DNA of 64,000 nt from Roseivirga thermotolerans (lineage in GTDB: Bacteria > Bacteroidota > Bacteroidia > Cytophagales > Cyclobacteriaceae): contig NZ_BNAG01000001.1 of NCBI RefSeq assembly GCF_014653175.1, positions 372,001 to 436,000 of the forward strand, given 5' to 3'. Below are positions 6,806-52,323 of the stretch, piece after piece. A program made the translations under genes and the position numbers. Numbering within the stretch: the first letter of the stretch is position 1; each line of letters opens with the position of its first letter. The notes under the pieces were generated by a model that worked only from the letters and a program-made list of their open reading frames with translations, did no database searches and had not been told where the DNA came from.

Positions 6806-7801
6806 TTAGGCATTAAGCCTCTTCCAGATGAGGTCTTTGAGCTGCTGTAATCCTTGCTGGGCCACTGAAGAAATGAACACACTTTCTATGTCTTTGGGGA
6901 GAAGCTCCTCCATTTCATTCATCATTTGCTCATCGAGCATATCGCATTTGGAAATGGCCAGTATTCTTTCTTTATCGAGCAGTTCGGGGTTGTACTTCTT
7001 CAGTTCGCCTAGCAGAATGTCATACTCCTTTTGAATGTCAGTGGCATCGGCAGGAACAAGGAAAAGAAGGATCGAATTTCGTTCTATATGTCGAAGGAAA
7101 CGAATTCCCAGGCCTTTTCCTTCGGCTGCTCCTTCTATAATACCCGGAATGTCGGCCATCACAAAAGACTTATGGTCTCTGTAAGACACCACGCCCAGAT
7201 TGGGCACGAGGGTAGTGAAAGGATAATCGGCAATTTCCGGCTTGGCCGCAGAAAGCACCGAAAGCAGTGTTGACTTTCCGGCATTGGGGAAGCCAACCAG
7301 TCCTACATCGGCCAGAAGTTTTAGCTCCAATACACAGAGAGCCTCTTCTCCCGCTTCTCCTGGCTGAGCAAAACGGGGGGTCTGATTGGTCGCTGTTTTG
7401 AAATTTTCGTTGCCCAGGCCTCCACGACCTCCCTGAAGAAGGATTCTTTCTTCTCCATCTTCGGTAATTTCGAACAGAACCTTTTCTTCCGGTTCTACAG
7501 TCTTGGCCACAGTACCCAGCGGTACATCGAGAATTATGTCGGCTCCATCGGCACCCGTACTTCTTTGTCCTCCTCCGGGCTGACCGTGTTCGGCAAATAC
7601 ATGTTTTTGATACCGCAAGTGAAGCAGGGTCCACATTTGCTTGTTGCCACGTAAAATAATATGGCCTCCCCGGCCTCCATTGCCGCCATCGGGGCCTCCC
7701 TTAGGAACGTGCTTTTCTCGTCTGAAATGTACCGAGCCGGCACCTCCATTGCCCGACTTACAATAAAGCCGTACGTGATCGATAAAATTGGAACCTGCCA
7801 T
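6806..7801 (-). CDS. obg: GTPase Obg (CgtA), ribosome assembly and stress
   Basis: Essential GTPase that binds the 50S subunit during maturation. An Obg fold occupies residues 1-158 and is glycine-rich ([28 protein letters not shown]). It is followed by a G domain with P-loop GFPNAGKST, switch [11 protein letters not shown] and SKCD specificity motif. The length of 331 residues is normal. I start at ATG 7801 ([10 protein letters not shown]); the frame is open 19 codons further, but those residues do not belong to the family. It follows adk in the hpt-adk-obg series, an arrangement I recall as common in this phylum. Confidence 0.96.
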
Positions 7802-38734: not shown

Positions 38735-39394
38735 TTAAATTTTATTCATTACGGCCGATACTACCCGGTCGCAACGGCTATTGCCAAATTCAAAAACCGC
38801 GCTAGTCATAGACTGTTTGAGTAGGTCGTCTTTGAGCATTTTTTTAGCACGGTGCAAACGCACCTTCACATTACTGTCGCTCAAATCGAGCAAACGAGCA
38901 ATTTCTTGCCTGGGAGTTCCCTCCAGTTCATGTAAAATAAACACCAGCCGATACTTCTCCGGCAATCTGTCTATTGTTTGTTCTAAAATAGCCCTGGTTT
39001 CTCCTCCAATTACCTTCTTTTCAGGGCCGGGTTCAGGGGCAACTATTTTGTGGGTATGATCTGTAGTACCAGCAGCCTCCATAAACATGGCCTGCTTCCT
39101 TTTTCTGAGTTTTTGAAGCGCTTCATTCATTCCAATTCTGATTAGCCAGGTAGAAAAAGCTGAGTTTCCTCTAAATTCATCGAGTTTTAGGTAGGCCTTC
39201 AGGTAAGCTTCCTGCATAATGTCTTCCACCTCACTTTCGGAGACTATATAGCCTCTTACCACCCGATAAAGAGTCTGATTGTACCTGCGCATGAGTATCT
39301 CAAACAATTCTTTTTCTCCGCTAAGTATTCTCCCTATTACTTCCGTGTCCGTCAGCTTTGCGGTGGTCTGTCGAGAAAAGGATATAGCTCTCAT
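38735..39394 (-). CDS. ECF-family RNA polymerase sigma factor
   Basis: Sigma-70 family factor with only regions 2 and 4, 219 residues. Region 2 includes LFEILMRRYNQTLYRVVRGYIVSESEVEDIMQEAYLKAY and FSTWLIRIGMNEAL. A linker follows, then region 4, the helix-turn-helix LPEKYRLVFILHELEGTPRQEIARLLDLSDSNVKVRLHRAK. The C-terminal tail (FEFGNSRCDRVVSAVMNKI) resembles tails I have seen in a Bacteroidota ECF group. No anti-sigma gene is adjacent. It is divergent from a DoxX-like gene across a symmetric double promoter, which strongly suggests that it controls itself and that gene. Confidence 0.92.
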   Translation of the reverse strand: MRAISFSRQTTAKLTDTEVIGRILSGEKELFEILMRRYNQTLYRVVRGYIVSESEVEDIMQEAYLKAYLKLDEFRGNSAFSTWLIRIGMNEALQKLRKRKQAMFMEAAGTTDHTHKIVAPEPGPEKKVIGGETRAILEQTIDRLPEKYRLVFILHELEGTPRQEIARLLDLSDSNVKVRLHRAKKMLKDDLLKQSMTSAVFEFGNSRCDRVVSAVMNKI

Positions 39395-39420
39395 GGCTCT
39401 TTTGGGTTGTTTTCGGCCAT

Positions 39421-39448
39421 TAGATGCCGGCAGTACAACTTGGTTACA
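39421..39448 (-). promoter_or_regulatory. candidate ECF-type promoter of the sigma factor gene (left half of a symmetric pair)
   Basis: Minus strand: TGTAAC, 16 bases, CATCTA, then the ECF sigma ATG about 26 bases further. The -35-like box is one half of an 18-bp perfect palindrome (GTTACAAAATTTTGTAAC, 39443-39460) whose other half serves the opposite strand. TGTAAC/GTAAC -35 boxes with a TC-containing -10 fit known ECF promoter styles. Autoregulation is the natural inference. Confidence 0.65.
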
Positions 39449-39454
39449 AAATTT

Positions 39455-39482
39455 TGTAACGGATTAGTTCCTTTTTCATCTA
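39455..39482 (+). promoter_or_regulatory. candidate ECF-type promoter of the DoxX-like gene (right half of a symmetric pair)
   Basis: Plus strand: TGTAAC, 16 bases, CATCTA, then 25 bases to the DoxX-like ATG. Boxes and spacing are identical to those on the other strand, so the two promoters mirror each other around the palindrome centre. Both flanking genes would therefore respond to the same sigma factor. Confidence 0.65.
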
Positions 39483-39507
39483 AAAGGAAACTTCAAACAA
39501 AATTGAA

Positions 39508-39912: not shown

Positions 39913-40125
39913 AATACTCTCTCTAAGTGGTAGGTTCCGAAGGCTGTTTCGTGCACCGGAAGGCATGGTTCTGCTTTAGTCACAAATTATGGATAGCATG
40001 TTTCCGGTTTTACAGTTCTGCCAACAATTCCGATAATCTATGTAAGAATTGTATGCATTGAGACAGCCTTCTTACCTCCAACACTCACTAATCCCGAAAT
40101 GACAAATCAAATGAAAATAATTTCG

Positions 40126-40137
40126 GACAAAATTGTC
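40126..40137. promoter_or_regulatory. inverted repeat GACAA-AA-TTGTC upstream of the Rrf2 gene, candidate operator
   Basis: A short dyad 46 bases ahead of the chosen Rrf2-family start. Rrf2 regulators usually autoregulate through AT-rich dyads close to their promoter, so this is a candidate site. It is short and could be chance. Confidence 0.35.
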
Positions 40138-40182
40138 TTAAATAAAAACAGCCATTACATTTGGGCTAAAAGTAAGTCGCGA

Positions 40183-40617
40183 ATGTTTTCAAAAGCATGT
40201 GAATACGGAATAAGGGCAACTCTATACATTGCTCAAAAGTCGCTAAACGGTCAAAGAGCAAGCCTTAAGGCCATAACTCACGAGATAGATTCACCAGAAG
40301 CTTTCACGGCCAAAATCCTTCAGCAACTCGCCAAAGCGCAGGTAGTTCGTTCGGTAAAAGGCCCACATGGTGGCTTCGAAATAGCGAGAGAAGACATTGA
40401 TAGCATGCGGCTCAGCGAGATTGTTAATGCCATAGATGGCGACAACATTTACAAAGGCTGTGGCTTGGGCCTAAAGGCTTGTAATGCTCAAAAACCCTGC
40501 CCTGTACACCACAAGTTTACGGCCATTAGAAATGACCTTAAAACTATGTTGCAAGAAACACGCCTCCTGGAGTTAGCCACCAGCCTGGAAACCGGACTTA
40601 CATTTTTGAAACGATAA
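40183..40617 (+). CDS. Rrf2-family transcriptional regulator with Fe-S cysteines (NsrR/IscR type)
   Basis: A 144-residue winged-helix regulator starting MFSKACEYGIRATLYIAQ, the family's standard beginning. The frame is open for 28 more codons to an ATG at 40099, but those residues are not family-like. Three cysteines at 93, 100 and 106 (CGLGLKACNAQKPC) are spaced like the cluster ligands of IscR and NsrR. The genes behind it encode a globin and a hemerythrin, so sensing NO or oxygen through an Fe-S cluster is the likely role. The actual signal is not shown. Confidence 0.88.
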   Translation: MFSKACEYGIRATLYIAQKSLNGQRASLKAITHEIDSPEAFTAKILQQLAKAQVVRSVKGPHGGFEIAREDIDSMRLSEIVNAIDGDNIYKGCGLGLKACNAQKPCPVHHKFTAIRNDLKTMLQETRLLELATSLETGLTFLKR

Positions 40618-40735
40618 AATTTAATTCAATAAAAGATATAAAGGTCTTAATATCTAAAATATGATTACATATGACTTATTATCAACTAACTGAAACCGCA
40701 AACGGCAAAGGCCTAATTCATCAATATCTGACTCC

Positions 40736-41122
40736 ATGAGAACCATCATCAGCCTCATAGATATTCAGCTACTGGTAGATAGCTTCTATGAGAAAGTGCG
40801 TAAAGACACGCTTCTTGGGCCCATTTTCAACCGGCAGATTGAAGACCGCTGGCCTCAACATTTAGAACGGATGTATACTTTCTGGCAAACTGTGCTGTTG
40901 CAAGAACATACTTACCACGGCAGCCCATTTGCTCCACATATGCGTTTGCCCATTGGTGAACCACATTTTACCCGGTGGCTCCAATTATTTTACAAAACCA
41001 TTGACGAGAATTTTGAAGGAAGCAAAGCCGAAGAGGCCAAATGGCGCGCTCAAAAAATGGCCGAGATGTTTGTGGTGAAAATAGATTACTATCAAACGAG
41101 AAACTCAAAACCCTTGCTATGA
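40736..41122 (+). CDS. truncated hemoglobin, group III
   Basis: A 128-residue 2-on-2 globin. DSFYEKVRKDTLLGPIFN (Tyr18, the B10-type residue) and the proximal His77 in PHFTRWLQLFY match the group III pattern, and the size is normal. Such globins bind O2 and NO and often protect against nitrosative stress. It lies 118 bases after the Rrf2 regulator and overlaps the next gene by four bases (ATGA), so it starts a globin, membrane-protein, hemerythrin operon. Confidence 0.9.
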   Translation: MRTIISLIDIQLLVDSFYEKVRKDTLLGPIFNRQIEDRWPQHLERMYTFWQTVLLQEHTYHGSPFAPHMRLPIGEPHFTRWLQLFYKTIDENFEGSKAEEAKWRAQKMAEMFVVKIDYYQTRNSKPLL

Positions 41123-41601
41123 GTAGCAAAGTACAATCACCCGTTTCGGTAGCATCAGTCTTTCTGTGGATTGGTTTTGTCTGTGCCATCAGCTTTATGG
41201 AGGCCTGGCTCAAGTTTAGGGCACCGGGAATTACGCTGCCATTGGGTCTTGGTATAGGACGTCTGGTATTTGGCGCCCTCAACAAAGTGGAGTGGGTATT
41301 TGCTCTTTCGCTACTTTTCCCGCTCCTGTCAGGGCGCAAATTCATGAAAGCGAGCACCCTTTTGTATCTGCTAGCCATTATTATTCTCATTGTCCAAAGC
41401 CTATGGATGCTTCCTACCCTCGATGCCCGGGCAGAGATGTACATACAAGGAATTACCCCACCACGCTCTAACATACACTTTTACTACGTGGGAGCGGAGT
41501 TTGTAAAAGTGGCCTCTCTATTTATATATGCTATAACACTCTTTAAACAAAACCACTCAAGAACGCCTTTTACTCAGGAGAGTACTCAACGAACCTATTG
41601 A
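41119..41601 (+). CDS. four-helix membrane protein of unknown function in the globin operon
   Basis: A 160-residue protein with about four helices (near 10-28, 55-72, 82-101 and 122-143) and the conserved-looking phrase FMEAWLKFRAPGITLPLGLGIGRLVFGALNKVEW after helix 1. I do not know its function. I start at ATG 41119, which overlaps the globin stop. The frame is open 26 codons further upstream, but that part lies within the globin gene. Its position between a globin and a hemerythrin suggests a membrane partner in NO or O2 handling, perhaps electron supply; this is speculation. Confidence 0.78.
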   Translation: MSSKVQSPVSVASVFLWIGFVCAISFMEAWLKFRAPGITLPLGLGIGRLVFGALNKVEWVFALSLLFPLLSGRKFMKASTLLYLLAIIILIVQSLWMLPTLDARAEMYIQGITPPRSNIHFYYVGAEFVKVASLFIYAITLFKQNHSRTPFTQESTQRTY

Positions 41602-42063
41602 ATGAAAAGAAAACCATTGAAGCGAACCCAGGCCCTACAGCCCCTTAGCCGGGAGCATCATCAAGGGCTATTGCTCTGTTGGAAGATTAGAAAAGGTCTT
41701 GGCACCGGAGTAGACCCTTGTCGAATAAAGGCCTACGTAGACTGGTTTTATGAAAATTACCTGTTCACTCATTTTCATCAGGAAGAGCAATTCGTTTTCC
41801 CACTACTGGGCAATGAACACGAGCTTGTAAGAAAGGCTCTGACCGAACACCGAAGGCTCAATCGGCTATTTTCGCAAAAGGAAGACCTTACAAGAAACCT
41901 TAGCCGTATAGAAGAAGAACTTGAACAACACATTCGATTTGAAGAACGAGTGCTCTTTGAAGAAATACAACGCACCGTTAGCACAGAGCAATTGCAATCG
42001 CTTGAACTAAGCCATCAAGAAACCGGATTTCAGGAAAATAACTCCGACCCCTTTTGGCTTTAA
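41602..42063 (+). CDS. hemerythrin HHE-domain protein
   Basis: A 153-residue four-helix-bundle protein with the diiron-binding histidine and glutamate pattern: REHHQGLLL in helix 1, HFHQEEQFVFPLL in helix 2, EHRRLNRLF in helix 3 and LEQHIRFEERVLFEEI in helix 4. HHE proteins store or sense O2 or NO, or repair Fe-S centres (RIC/YtfE group). It starts directly after the stop of the membrane-protein gene and closes the operon. Confidence 0.85.
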   Translation: MKRKPLKRTQALQPLSREHHQGLLLCWKIRKGLGTGVDPCRIKAYVDWFYENYLFTHFHQEEQFVFPLLGNEHELVRKALTEHRRLNRLFSQKEDLTRNLSRIEEELEQHIRFEERVLFEEIQRTVSTEQLQSLELSHQETGFQENNSDPFWL

Positions 42064-42122
42064 GGCCACGCTGTATTACAGCTGCACAAAGTCGGCCATC
42101 CAACACTTTTGCCATTCAATGC

Positions 42123-42151
42123 TGTAACCAAAACCTACTTTCTGTATCCAA
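42123..42151 (+). promoter_or_regulatory. candidate ECF-type promoter of the DUF4142 gene
   Basis: TGTAACC, 16 bases, ATCCAA; the DUF4142 ATG lies 30 bases further. Boxes and spacing closely match the pair at 39.4 kb (TGTAAC[C/G]-N16-ATCTAA). It is a single match with one base different in the -10 box, so it is weaker than the paired examples. Confidence 0.4.
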
Positions 42152-42181
42152 TGGTCACTTATAATAACAGAACAGACCATT

Positions 42182-42718
42182 ATGAAAACACTTCTCAGAT
42201 CACAAACAAGACTGCTGGCCATAGCCATTTTTCTCTGCATTGGTTTTGGCCTGAAGGCACAGGAAACACCAAAGCTAAACGACACTGAAATAGCCCATGT
42301 GGGTGTTGTGGCTAACCAAATTGACATTAGCTATGCAGAAATAGCCAAATCCAGATCCAGAAATAAAGCCATAGTGAACTTTGCTGAAACTATGGTTCGA
42401 GACCATAAGGCCTTCATTGAACAGGCCGAAAAGCTGGTTACTCGATTAGGGGTAAGCCCTCAAGACAATGCAGTAAGCCAGTCTCTGCTTGAAGGAGCCA
42501 AACAAACCCGCGAAATGCTGATGACCAAAAGCGGAAAAGCCTTCGACAAAGCCTACATCGATAATGAAGTGGCCTATCACAAAATTGTTATTGATGCCCT
42601 CAAAAACCTACTAGCCGCTCAGGCAAGCAACGATGAGCTTCGCTCTTTTCTTGAGGGCATAGTTCCTGCCCTTGAGGGGCACTTGAAGCATGCCGAAATG
42701 GTACAAAAGTCTATTTAA
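42182..42718 (+). CDS. DUF4142-family exported protein (ferritin-like fold)
   Basis: A 178-residue protein with a Sec signal peptide (cleavage near residue 26, GLKAQ) and a long-helix body (FAETMVRDHKAFIEQAEKLVTRLG, VAYHKIVIDALKNLL, LEGHLKHAEMV). This matches the DUF4142 family, predicted to form a ferritin-like four-helix bundle in the periplasm. Its role is unknown; it is often linked with envelope or oxidative stress. A TGTAACC-type promoter ahead of it suggests ECF control. Confidence 0.85.
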   Translation: MKTLLRSQTRLLAIAIFLCIGFGLKAQETPKLNDTEIAHVGVVANQIDISYAEIAKSRSRNKAIVNFAETMVRDHKAFIEQAEKLVTRLGVSPQDNAVSQSLLEGAKQTREMLMTKSGKAFDKAYIDNEVAYHKIVIDALKNLLAAQASNDELRSFLEGIVPALEGHLKHAEMVQKSI

Positions 42719-42891
42719 GACCCACTACTAACTGCTGGGGCTTCTCAGCCCATTGATTTCCAAGACCCGGTTCAGCTCCCAACCAACTACTCATCAAGTA
42801 GTTGTTCATTGAGAAAAGTGTCAACGAACCGCGTCCGCTTATCATAGCTGAGAGCCCCTCTTTTCTTTCTTAATCATAAACTCATATTTGC

Positions 42892-43230
42892 ATGAAAACT
42901 TTGTTCAGCCTGGCAGCTATTGCCTTAATTAGCTATTGTAGCCTTTGGCCACAGGCCTCCCTAAAAAAGGGACAAACTCCTCAAAATCATACCGTTGAAA
43001 TAAAGCAACTCAAATTCATACCTGATTATATTGAGGTTAATAAAGGAGATACTGTTACCTTTATTAACAGAGATTATGTTCAACACGATGTTACTGAAGA
43101 GAAAGCTAAGCGGTGGACTTCCGGGATTCTTAAAAAAGATGAAAGCTGGAAAACAGTTGTAAAAGGCGATGAAGACTACTTTTGCACTCTTCATGTCATC
43201 ATGAAAGGGAAAATAAGAATTAAGAAATAG
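42892..43230 (+). CDS. small exported cupredoxin (plastocyanin/amicyanin-like)
   Basis: A 112-residue blue-copper-type protein with an N-terminal signal peptide (about 1-22). The type 1 copper ligands can be placed at H65 (YVQHDV), C98, H101 and M104 (YFCTLHVIMKG), in the order H...C-x2-H-x2-M. It probably shuttles electrons in the periplasm. It lies 13 bases ahead of the PLP decarboxylase gene and downstream of the globin/hemerythrin cluster. Confidence 0.85.
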   Translation: MKTLFSLAAIALISYCSLWPQASLKKGQTPQNHTVEIKQLKFIPDYIEVNKGDTVTFINRDYVQHDVTEEKAKRWTSGILKKDESWKTVVKGDEDYFCTLHVIMKGKIRIKK

Positions 43231-43243
43231 CACCAACTCACCC

Positions 43244-44704
43244 ATGGAGCACGGTCGGACTGACACTTTTGACATAGAAGCCCAACCCTCACTTCACCTG
43301 CTGGAGACTGATTCTACAAGCAGGTCAGAACTATTGAGTGCCATAGTCAATTATGGAGAGGTTTTTCTAAACACGCTTCAAGAACGTAAGGCCTACGAGC
43401 ACTCTGCTCACGAGCGTAAGGGAACGGACGACTTCTTTGAAATAGATCAGGCCAGATATTCTATAGAAGATATTTTGCCTTTTTTGGCTCAACGCCTCGA
43501 TGTTCCCGGTATTAACACTGCCTCCGGGGGCCATATGGGTTACATTCCGGGGGGAGGTATTTACGAATCGGCCTTGGGAGATTATCTGGCGGCAGTAACC
43601 AACCGCTATGCGGGAGTATTTTTTGCATCGCCCGGAGCTGTGCGCATGGAAAACGCCCTAATTCGCTGGGCTGCAAGATTAATTGGCTATACGGACAGCT
43701 TTGCAGGTAACCTGACTTCTGGCGGAAGCATGGCCAACCTTATTGCCGTTTCTACCGCCCGAGAGGCTCAAAACATTAAAAGCCGACAGGTAGATCAGTC
43801 GGTTATTTACACCACCCAGCAGGCTCATCACAGCCTGCAAAAAGCCATTAGACTTTGCGGCTTAGAGGAATGTGTACTTCGCTTTGTTGAGCAAGATCTC
43901 CAATATAAAATGGTACCTCAGGCTCTTGAGGCACAAATTCAAGAAGATATAACCAACGGGCTGAAGCCATTTTTAATTATTGCCAATGCCGGTTCCACCG
44001 ATATTGGTACCGTAGACCCACTAGACGATATTGCCCACATAGCTCGCAAATACAGCCTGTGGTTTCATGTAGATGCGGCTTATGGTGGCTTCTTTATGCT
44101 CACCGACTACGGCAGGCAAATTATGAAGGGTATAGAAAAAGCCGATTCGGTTATTCTCGACCCACATAAAGGACTATTCCTTCCATATGGTTCTGGAATT
44201 GTATTGGTTAAAGAACAGCGACACCTTGCTCAAGCCAACCGCTACGAGGCCAATTACATGCAAGACACCAAGGATTATCATGAAGAAACTTCTCCGGCAG
44301 AACTCTCACCAGAATTGAGCAAGCACTTTAGAGGTATGCGAATGTGGCTACCCCTAAAGCTGCATGGTACAGCCCCTTTTCGTAGCTGCCTTGAAGAAAA
44401 GCTGGATTTGGCACGTTACCTTCACGCTCGGCTAAAAGACCTCGGTTTTGAGGTAGGTCCTTATCCAACCCTTACCACCGTCATTTTCAGGCATGTTCCC
44501 AATGAGCAAAATGCCAATGCCTGTAACACTGCTCTGGTGAAGGCCATTCACAAAGACGGTCGTATTTTTGTTTCCTCAACTAGCCTGAAGGGCCATGTTT
44601 ATCTCAGAGCTTCCATTCTCTCGTTCCGAACTCACCGAAGAGAGGTAGATCTTCTGATCCAAATTCTGGAAAAAGAAAGAGCGCTTCTTGAAACACAGCC
44701 TTAA
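43244..44704 (+). CDS. PLP-dependent group II decarboxylase (aromatic or other L-amino acid)
   Basis: A 486-residue cytoplasmic enzyme of the DOPA/tryptophan/glutamate decarboxylase family. Marks are GNLTSGGSMANLIAVSTAR, the PLP-stacking H-HSLQKA region, HVDAAYGGFFML with the ring-nitrogen aspartate, and the Schiff-base lysine in DSVILDPHKGLF. Substrate choice cannot be read reliably; aromatic amino acids are most common. It follows the cupredoxin by 13 bases and may be cotranscribed with it. Confidence 0.88.
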   Translation: MEHGRTDTFDIEAQPSLHLLETDSTSRSELLSAIVNYGEVFLNTLQERKAYEHSAHERKGTDDFFEIDQARYSIEDILPFLAQRLDVPGINTASGGHMGYIPGGGIYESALGDYLAAVTNRYAGVFFASPGAVRMENALIRWAARLIGYTDSFAGNLTSGGSMANLIAVSTAREAQNIKSRQVDQSVIYTTQQAHHSLQKAIRLCGLEECVLRFVEQDLQYKMVPQALEAQIQEDITNGLKPFLIIANAGSTDIGTVDPLDDIAHIARKYSLWFHVDAAYGGFFMLTDYGRQIMKGIEKADSVILDPHKGLFLPYGSGIVLVKEQRHLAQANRYEANYMQDTKDYHEETSPAELSPELSKHFRGMRMWLPLKLHGTAPFRSCLEEKLDLARYLHARLKDLGFEVGPYPTLTTVIFRHVPNEQNANACNTALVKAIHKDGRIFVSSTSLKGHVYLRASILSFRTHRREVDLLIQILEKERALLETQP

Positions 44705-51352: not shown

Positions 51353-51943
51353 GTGAAAAGCCACAATGAATTATACGCAATGGAACTAATCATCGCTAGG
51401 GTAAAACAGGGCGATATGGTTGCATTCAATGCACTCATTGATGAGCACAAGGCAATGGCTTTTACTTTAGCTATAAAGCTTTTGAAAAACCGGGAAGATG
51501 CTGAGGAAGTAACTCAAGACGCATTTGTCAAAGCATATAAGAACATATCCCAGTTCGAAGGAAAATCTAAGTTTTCTACCTGGTTATATACCATAGTATA
51601 CAACACTGCTCTTACAAGGCTGCGTAAAAAACAGATCAGCATACAAGAATTAGACTCGCATACCGTAGAAAATTCGGCTGAAGCCAGTGAATCATCTGCT
51701 TCCTGGAATACCTTACGAAAAGATGAAAGAAGCAGCTACATTCAGCAAGCGCTACACCGACTGGTTGAAGAGGATCAGGTGGTGATCACCTTGTTTTACC
51801 TTAATGAAAATTCACTGGTAGAGATTTGCGAAATCACAGGTTGGGAATTATCCAACGTTAAAGTTAGATTGCACAGAGCAAGAAAAAGGCTACTTGCTCA
51901 ACTCGAAAAGCTATTAGATACAGAGGTTAGGTCATTATTATGA
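51353..51943 (+). CDS. ECF-family RNA polymerase sigma factor
   Basis: Sigma factor with regions 2 and 4 only, 196 residues. Region 2 reads LLKNREDAEEVTQDAFVKAYKNISQFEG and KFSTWLYTIVYNTAL; region 4 reads LVEEDQVVITLFYLNENSLVEICEITGWELSNVKVRLHRARKRL. The GTG at 51353 is the longest start. ATG 51380 (MELIIARVKQGD) is a real alternative, because the predicted promoter would leave almost no leader for the GTG. Its stop overlaps the next gene by four bases, and that gene encodes a candidate anti-sigma. Confidence 0.92.
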   Translation: MKSHNELYAMELIIARVKQGDMVAFNALIDEHKAMAFTLAIKLLKNREDAEEVTQDAFVKAYKNISQFEGKSKFSTWLYTIVYNTALTRLRKKQISIQELDSHTVENSAEASESSASWNTLRKDERSSYIQQALHRLVEEDQVVITLFYLNENSLVEICEITGWELSNVKVRLHRARKRLLAQLEKLLDTEVRSLL

Positions 51944-52323
51944 GTAAGTTCGAACTTTCAGATGAGCAGCTAAAGCAACTTCTTAGAAGCGAAGGGTTAG
52001 AAGAGCCTTCACTGAGCTTTAACCGTAAAGTATTGGAGCAAGTGCAGGTCTATGAGCGCGCCCGATCCATTCGTACGCCTATGTGGGTTAAGGTTCTCTT
52101 TGCCCTATTTATTGTTGTGCCAGTTGTACTCATCATTACAGTTGGCGGTGTTAATTACCAGCTAGGAGAAGGTAGCTTTTCGTTCAATACAATTCAACTA
52201 CCCAGAATAAACATAGACCTAAATTATCTCTACTATTTTGCACTTCTTGTGGCTGCCTTGTGGTTATCGGTGGTCTTCTACAAAATTCTGGACAAGTCGA
52301 ATCACAGGGTTAAAAACGGTTAA
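51940..52323 (+). CDS. small membrane protein, candidate anti-sigma factor
   Basis: A 127-residue protein with a soluble N-terminus of about 45 residues (MSKFELSDEQLKQLLRSEGLEEPSLSFNRKVLEQV), a helix near 47-67, a short external segment and a second helix near 90-112. It shows no zinc-binding anti-sigma motif. The position overlapping the ECF sigma gene, plus a cytoplasmic N-terminus with a membrane anchor, fits an anti-sigma role; this is inference. I recognise no named family. Confidence 0.72.
   Translation: MSKFELSDEQLKQLLRSEGLEEPSLSFNRKVLEQVQVYERARSIRTPMWVKVLFALFIVVPVVLIITVGGVNYQLGEGSFSFNTIQLPRINIDLNYLYYFALLVAALWLSVVFYKILDKSNHRVKNG

Follow-up and report, generated by a model that had tools for sequence, protein, structure and literature searches.

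An ECF sigma factor gene and a divergently oriented gene for a DoxX/MauE-like membrane protein are separated, in the 64-kb stretch of DNA analysed here (hereafter the window), by a gap that carries the promoter-like unit TGTAAC-N16-CATCTA twice, once on each strand and in mirror image. The unit keeps its 16-base spacing, is conserved in front of both genes and varies together with the neighbouring sigma factor. Judging from the sequences, we consider it very likely that the adjacent sigma factor is positively autoregulated and co-expressed with its DoxX-like partner from this back-to-back promoter pair, and that a third copy at 42123 serves a DUF4142 protein gene. Many Bacteroidota relatives keep the back-to-back layout, and in them the sigma factor probably switches on its own gene and its membrane-protein neighbour together.

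A probable mirror-image promoter pair between two start codons

Read directly, the gap (39395-39507) has the form TAGATG-N16-GTTACAAAATTTTGTAAC-N16-CATCTA, with the sigma gene on its left and the DoxX-like gene on its right (Table 1). The layout of hexamer, 16 bases, palindrome, 16 bases and inverted hexamer that the original prediction placed at 39421-39482 is exact, and the 18-bp palindrome sits between the two start codons. Each putative -10 box had been put about 25 bases from the ATG that it faces, and the sequence agrees, the left hexamer being separated by 26 bases from the sigma ATG (39392-39394, minus strand) and the right one by 25 bases from the DoxX-like ATG (39508). The two -10 boxes (39421 and 39477) are 50 bp apart. 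What has to be given up is the description of the -35 boxes as overlapping: the two TGTAAC boxes (39443-39448 and 39455-39460) are adjacent and lie 6 bp (AAATTT) apart.

Table 1. Features of the intergenic element and of the genes it is predicted to serve (window coordinates; promoter boxes as predicted)
Feature	Position	Strand	Basis
Left hexamer TAGATG (CATCTA on the minus strand), putative -10 box of the sigma gene promoter	39421-39426	-	direct reading; kept in relatives
Left spacer, 16 bases	39427-39442		direct reading
GTTACAAAATTTTGTAAC, perfect 18-bp palindrome	39443-39460		direct reading
TGTAAC, putative -35 box of the sigma gene promoter	39443-39448	-	direct reading; kept in relatives
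AAATTT, centre separating both -35 boxes	39449-39454	no strand	comparison of mirror loci
TGTAAC, putative -35 box of the DoxX-like gene promoter	39455-39460	+	direct reading; kept in relatives
Right spacer, 16 bases	39461-39476		direct reading
CATCTA, putative -10 box of the DoxX-like gene promoter	39477-39482	+	direct reading; kept in relatives
Third, single copy of the promoter, TGTAAC-N16-TATCCAA	42123-42151	+	half-site search
DUF4142 protein gene behind the third copy	42182-42718	+	Pfam; cupredoxin gene then at 42892
ECF sigma factor, 219 aa, with C-terminal FEFGNSRCD tail	38735-39394	-	Pfam Sigma70_r2 and Sigma70_r4_2
DoxX/MauE-like membrane protein, 134 aa	39508-39912	+	Pfam MauE below cut-off; AlphaFold2 model

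The palindrome GTTACAAAATTTTGTAAC occurs once in the 4.2-Mb genome, and at 3 mismatches it finds 4 further places, compared with 2 for a reversed control. As a chance model we used 150 sequences of 64 kb, generated by a first-order Markov process with the dinucleotide frequencies of the window. Perfect palindromes of at least 18 bp number 3 in the window against a simulated mean of 0.28; with three present, palindromes alone are not rare here, and it is the mirrored hexamers that stand out. A palindrome flanked by a mirrored hexamer within 40 bp was found once in the window and in 0 of the 150 simulations, in line with the earlier view that such symmetry is improbable by chance. When the order was surveyed for the mirror with a centre of 6 bp, it was recorded in 1 of 291 genomes, namely the window's own; this count bears on chance and not on spread, because two known carriers, G006 and G011, are absent from the resulting list. 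On the strength of the simulations, the count across the order and the enrichment at a single spacer length described below, we reject a chance origin of the mirror.

The half-site is a promoter-like unit with a fixed spacer

We compared 105 loci picked via the DoxX-like gene: the window itself, 4 stretches, 21 loci from the family and, out of 461 Bacteroidota-type matches, the best 80 less L073, which duplicates G006. In this set, the half-site TGTA[A/T]C-N16-NATC[T/A/C]AA is enriched at a spacer of 16 only, among spacers from 10 to 24 bases. The 105 loci, with the best 80 of 461 matches among them, hold 148 N16 half-sites shortly upstream of the two genes, with 22 more in other places, whereas each of the other 14 spacers yields 0-2 near the two genes and 0-6 elsewhere. 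Removal of redundancy leaves 20 of the matches elsewhere, which include arms of rearranged mirrors and a few sites without an obvious gene. The arms had been proposed as plausible ECF promoters, and this reading is strengthened both by the N16-specific enrichment and by a promoter class that follows the sigma clade (see below). In two genomes, G033 and G132, the best sigma match (43% identical) is found on another contig than the DoxX-like gene, and each of the two genes is preceded by TGTAAC-N16-NATCTA.

Half-sites also occur singly. Besides the copy at 42123, single copies precede DUF4142 genes in four loci according to Pfam (L026, L058, L060 and L061) and in a fifth by eye (L072, where the gene is cut by the locus end), and they precede FAD/NAD oxidoreductase genes in L058, L060 and L061; the target of the single copy in L021 shows a weak DUF7282 match only. 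The window's own genome contains four half-sites, three of which fall within 2.8 kb; contig C6 carries the fourth, which is followed by an ATG after only a few bases and was given no weight. A genome-wide regulon defined by the strict pattern was considered and dropped: since a reversed control pattern also occurs four times in this genome, the pattern by itself gives no ground for claiming a wider regulon. A pair of DUF4142 and cupredoxin genes is also seen beside the sigma gene in L136 (Pfam) and L140 (by eye).

Both arms are kept in relatives while the centre varies

Within the genus, the sigma factor, at E 1e-40 or better, is encoded by 3 of 19 genomes, the window's own included, and the DoxX-like gene is found in the same three. 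The divergent gene pair of G011 encloses TAGATG-N16-GTTACAGCCTTTGTAAC-N16-CATCTA, in which the arms and N16 spacers are intact on both sides and the centre, now 5 bp long, has lost its palindromic symmetry. In G006 the mirror is kept before doxX as TGGATG-N16-GTTACAAATTTTGTAAC-N16-GATCTA, with one-base changes in the arms and intact N16 spacers; the sigma gene lies ~5.4 kb away (locus L014) and has a single copy of its own, TGTAAC-N16-TATCTAA, whose -10 box starts 26 bases before the sigma ATG. Loss of the hexamers and spacings in relatives had been named beforehand as grounds for abandoning the promoter reading; in both same-genus carriers, the hexamers and the two 16-base spacers are kept. 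Between the mirror and the distant sigma gene, L014 holds two more half-sites in tandem (7298-7340), with -10 boxes ~230-250 bases before a gene for a 441-aa lipoprotein-like protein.

At the level of the family, a search of 390 genomes found the DoxX-like gene in 24; 23 of these also have the sigma factor, and in the 24th a piece of it is found where a contig ends. In the 105 loci, a set built around the best 80 of 461 matches, the sigma gene is adjacent to the DoxX-like gene in 92; the pair is divergent within 600 bp in 76, doxX precedes a co-directional sigma gene in 16, and 13 loci have another arrangement or no sigma gene. Taking out 7 further redundant loci left 98 (70 divergent, 16 co-directional and 12 other). 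Our strict pattern, TGTA[AT]C-N16-NATC[ACT]A, was derived from the first relatives and widened at variable positions after the larger set had been seen. It occurs on both arms in 56 of the 70 non-redundant divergent loci (same set, with the best 80 of 461 matches), which carries the conservation of both arms beyond the genus; given how the pattern was obtained, this and the other locus counts are a description with an internal control and not an independent test, nor do they count independent events, since many loci come from related Flavobacteriaceae. For the same set of mirrors we also computed an information profile, whose rows were selected by the pattern and which is not counted as evidence for the boxes. 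The 14 divergent loci that fail match on the DoxX side only (8), on the sigma side only (1) or on neither (5), and several of them carry CTC or TGTATC variants. Both sides match in 2 of the 12 other loci, the DoxX side in 8 and neither in 2. ATC-type sites are found in 0 of the 16 co-directional loci, 14 of which have TGTAAC-N17-NC[T/C]CTA.

In the 56 strict mirrors, the -35 boxes are separated by 6 bp in 48 cases, by 5 bp in 5, and by 7, 4 and 34 bp in one case each, such that 55 of the 56 fall within 4-7 bp. Looser scoring added three loci with gaps of 21-23 bp and CTC-type -10 boxes (L112, L114 and L115) and one, L108, in which both arms are kept ~295 bp apart. The 98 loci contain 60 mirrored patterns, 57 of them within 200 bp of the doxX start; the remaining three (L026, L072 and L093) stand before the sigma gene, with doxX located elsewhere, and in L093 the other arm faces a FAD/NAD oxidoreductase gene. 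Frequently it is the DoxX-side boxes that are the variant ones: TGTATC is found on the DoxX side only in 20 of the 56 strict mirrors, on both sides in 6 and on the sigma side only in none, and 27 of the 56 combine ATCTA before the sigma gene with ATCAA before doxX.

This series of centres bears on whether the palindrome could instead be the operator of a dimeric regulator, for instance the Rrf2 protein encoded at 40099, with the flanking hexamers being incidental. The dyad is perfect and unique in the genome, an Rrf2 gene is a close neighbour in the window and is also found behind doxX in L014, and 29 of the 49 mirrors with a gap of 6 have exactly AAATTT as their centre, which lies outside the search pattern. 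However, the fixed distance between half-site centres that such an operator implies is not seen (4-7 bp, 34 bp in one locus), G011 retains both arms around a non-palindromic centre, and single half-sites of the same spacing precede other genes and unlinked doxX. With centres of 4, 5, 6, 7 and 34 bp against arm spacers that are constant at 16, we regard the operator as extremely improbable. A mixed arrangement, in which the sigma factor uses both promoters while another protein binds the palindrome as well and thereby sets how the two are balanced, draws on the same recurrence of AAATTT in 29 of 49 gap-6 mirrors despite its position outside the pattern, and we hold it to be unlikely. T-rich bases often precede TGTAAC at single copies too, the window's copy at 42123 being an exception, so the palindrome is largely explained by two promoters placed head to head; moreover, the tight centre is not obligatory, as gaps of 21-34 bp in a few loci and of ~295 bp in L108 demonstrate.

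The promoter type follows the clade of the adjacent sigma factor

The sigma factor scores 230 bits against NCBIfam NF008888/PRK11922, above the cut-off of 204, and thus belongs to the ECF (group IV) factors. The sequence mark of an autoregulated ECF factor, a -35/-10 pair at fixed spacing before the sigma factor's own gene that is kept in relatives, is found as well. In a tree of 89 sigma factors, all 69 from ATC-type N16 loci, four co-directional ones among them, fall on one side of a 100/99 branch, whereas the opposite side comprises 15 with N17 CTC-type promoters, all on the doxX strand, 3 with CTC-type N16 promoters and 2 without a match. The -10 type thus goes with the sigma clade, which strongly supports recognition of the promoter by the neighbouring factor but falls short of a proof, because long branches meet at this point, as the program warns, and near copies inflate the clustering.

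The tree also weighs on the idea that the arms are promoters of a different sigma factor and that the adjacent ECF gene is just one of its targets. The genome does encode other ECF sigma factors, one of them at window position 51353, but the promoter class tracks the clade of the adjacent factor, and the motif stands before 4 of 10 sigma genes from genomes without the DoxX-like gene, so that we rate this alternative as very unlikely. The sigma gene at 51353-51943 is directly followed by a gene for a 127-aa protein (the pair spans 51353-52323), which may be its anti-sigma factor.

The DoxX-like gene is missing from 14 of 37 sigma-bearing genomes of the family, and 10 of these 14 were seen as loci (L136, L138, L140, L142, L144, L148, L149, L150, L152 and L153). 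An N16 ATC-type site lies directly before the sigma gene in four of the ten (L136, L142, L144 and L149). In L136 this site forms one half of a mirror whose centre measures 5 bp; no gene lies in front of the opposite arm, and the spacer of that arm is 17 bases long. L138 and L144 have a gene for a small hydrophobic protein that is divergent from the sigma gene and carries an N16 site, followed in L138 by one for a DUF2231 protein (Pfam). Three loci (L140, L150 and L153) have CTC-type sites only, before neighbouring genes; in L152 the CTC-type site lies away from the sigma gene, and there is one distant ATC-type match; and in L148, one of the ten, the search found no site. Small hydrophobic proteins adjoin sigma relatives that have no such DoxX-like gene beside them, with the same kind of promoter, at L138 2285-3087, L144 2292-2621 and L146 677-1474, and by eye a DUF2231 membrane protein is seen beside the sigma relative in L146. 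Possibly, the small hydrophobic and DUF2231 proteins represent an exchangeable membrane partner of these sigma factors.

Residues 201-216 of the sigma factor form a C-terminal FEFGNSRCD..VM motif, and Cys208 in this tail is present in 88 of the 89 aligned sigma factors, the exception (L113) being interrupted by undetermined bases. As the tail has a pLDDT below 50 in a model with a pTM of 0.43, we draw no conclusion on its fold. That the conserved cysteine has a sensing role is a guess on our part.

The DoxX-like protein and its gene neighbourhood

The DoxX-like protein reaches 22.8 bits against Pfam MauE, below the cut-off of 27. Its AlphaFold2 model (mean pLDDT 89.4) consists of four long helices with no separate soluble domain, and the best fold match in the PDB is TMEM35A/NACHO, with a TM-score of 0.68 and a probability of 1.00 but a Foldseek E-value of 0.11; we take TMEM35A to be DoxX-like itself. 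Beside the sigma gene in the window, no anti-sigma gene was recognised, and the sigma gene is followed by a short ORF that presumably resembles ribosomal protein L31. A classical anti-sigma role of the DoxX-like protein was considered and rejected, as the protein has no Pfam anti-sigma match and spends its 134 residues on four helices without a separate domain; it may act as an anti-sigma factor of a non-classical kind. Further along, the window holds a gene cluster (40099-44704) for Rrf2, a bacterial globin, hemerythrin, DUF4142, cupredoxin and a PLP-dependent decarboxylase (Pfam), parts of which recur near the sigma gene in other Bacteroidota. In the vicinity of relatives there are genes for cbb3-type oxidase subunits, a cytochrome assembly protein and GTP cyclohydrolase. 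These gene neighbours suggest redox or nitrosative stress.

A model for coupled expression

In the arrangement that we favour, RNA polymerase carrying the adjacent sigma factor would bind both arms. Reading TGTAAC-N16-CATCTA leftward, it would produce more of its own sigma factor and thereby establish positive feedback, and reading the same unit rightward, it would co-express the DoxX-like membrane protein. The single copy at 42123 should turn on the DUF4142 gene and perhaps also the cupredoxin gene that follows. The presumed start sites, placed from the -10 positions, are ~75 bp apart, and because the boxes are so close, we consider it likely that polymerases on the two sides would hinder each other, with one side loading at a time. 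A more elaborate version is conceivable and, in our view, rather doubtful: the ECF factor, devoid of a classical anti-sigma factor, would sense through its own C-terminal cysteine tail, and the mirror pair would load one polymerase at a time, the DNA itself fixing the ratio of the sigma factor (feedback) to its DoxX-like partner (brake or effector). If so, variant DoxX-side boxes would set the ratio of the sigma factor to the DoxX-like protein.

The comparison provides this Bacteroidota ECF family with a promoter consensus that can be tested and with a small set of candidate regulon members. It also provides a natural series of loci in which near-identical promoters lie 4, 5, 6, 7, more than 20 or almost 300 bp apart, with which polymerase interference at back-to-back promoters becomes directly testable.

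Comparison with known systems

Among the matches listed in a search of titles and abstracts of open-licence literature, we found no description of this promoter pair, and likewise, among the matches listed from the open-licence literature, no described promoter for this Bacteroidota ECF family. In a transcription start map of Flavobacterium psychrophilum, one ECF motif is reported; its -10 box is CGT, and it is a different motif (PMC9723704). For the -35 box alone there is a likeness to Bacillus SigW, whose consensus is given as TGAAACxTTT (PMC6713349), close to the TGTAAC[C/T]TTT of many relatives, while the window itself is without the T run; the relationship is distant, the window's sigma factor scoring 126 bits against a SigW family cut-off of 209. 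With regard to the partner gene, the regulons of Haemophilus influenzae RpoE2, an ECF sigma factor for hypochlorite and envelope oxidative stress, and of Neisseria SigE each include a DoxX-like gene (PMC7907618); there, in H. influenzae, doxX belongs to another gene cluster and a small anti-sigma factor is encoded beside the sigma gene.

The bidirectional sigma70 promoters of Escherichia coli share with the element pseudo-symmetric DNA, divergent transcription and possible polymerase competition, and in them parts of the -10 element are shared between strands (PMC12825309). The element under study does not fit this type, as its -10 boxes (at 39421 and 39477) are not shared and lie 50 bp apart, its -35 boxes face each other and it would depend on an ECF sigma factor. 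In the same study, the basal activity of five E. coli promoters was too low for competition, which appeared in most of the five once one side had been strengthened (PMC12825309).

The ecfG-nepR / phyR locus of Alphaproteobacteria is an autoregulated ECF sigma locus with a divergent partner, with sigma-dependent promoters on both divergent units and positive feedback (PMC8103513), as we predict here. The difference lies in the divergent partner, a DoxX-like membrane protein in our case with no anti-sigma gene recognised beside the sigma gene; the -35 boxes of the Bacteroidota loci stand in mirror image, 4-7 bp apart. Most likely, the element described here is a variant of the already known autoregulated ECF sigma factor with a divergent partner, in which that partner is DoxX-like and the -35 boxes are mirror images.
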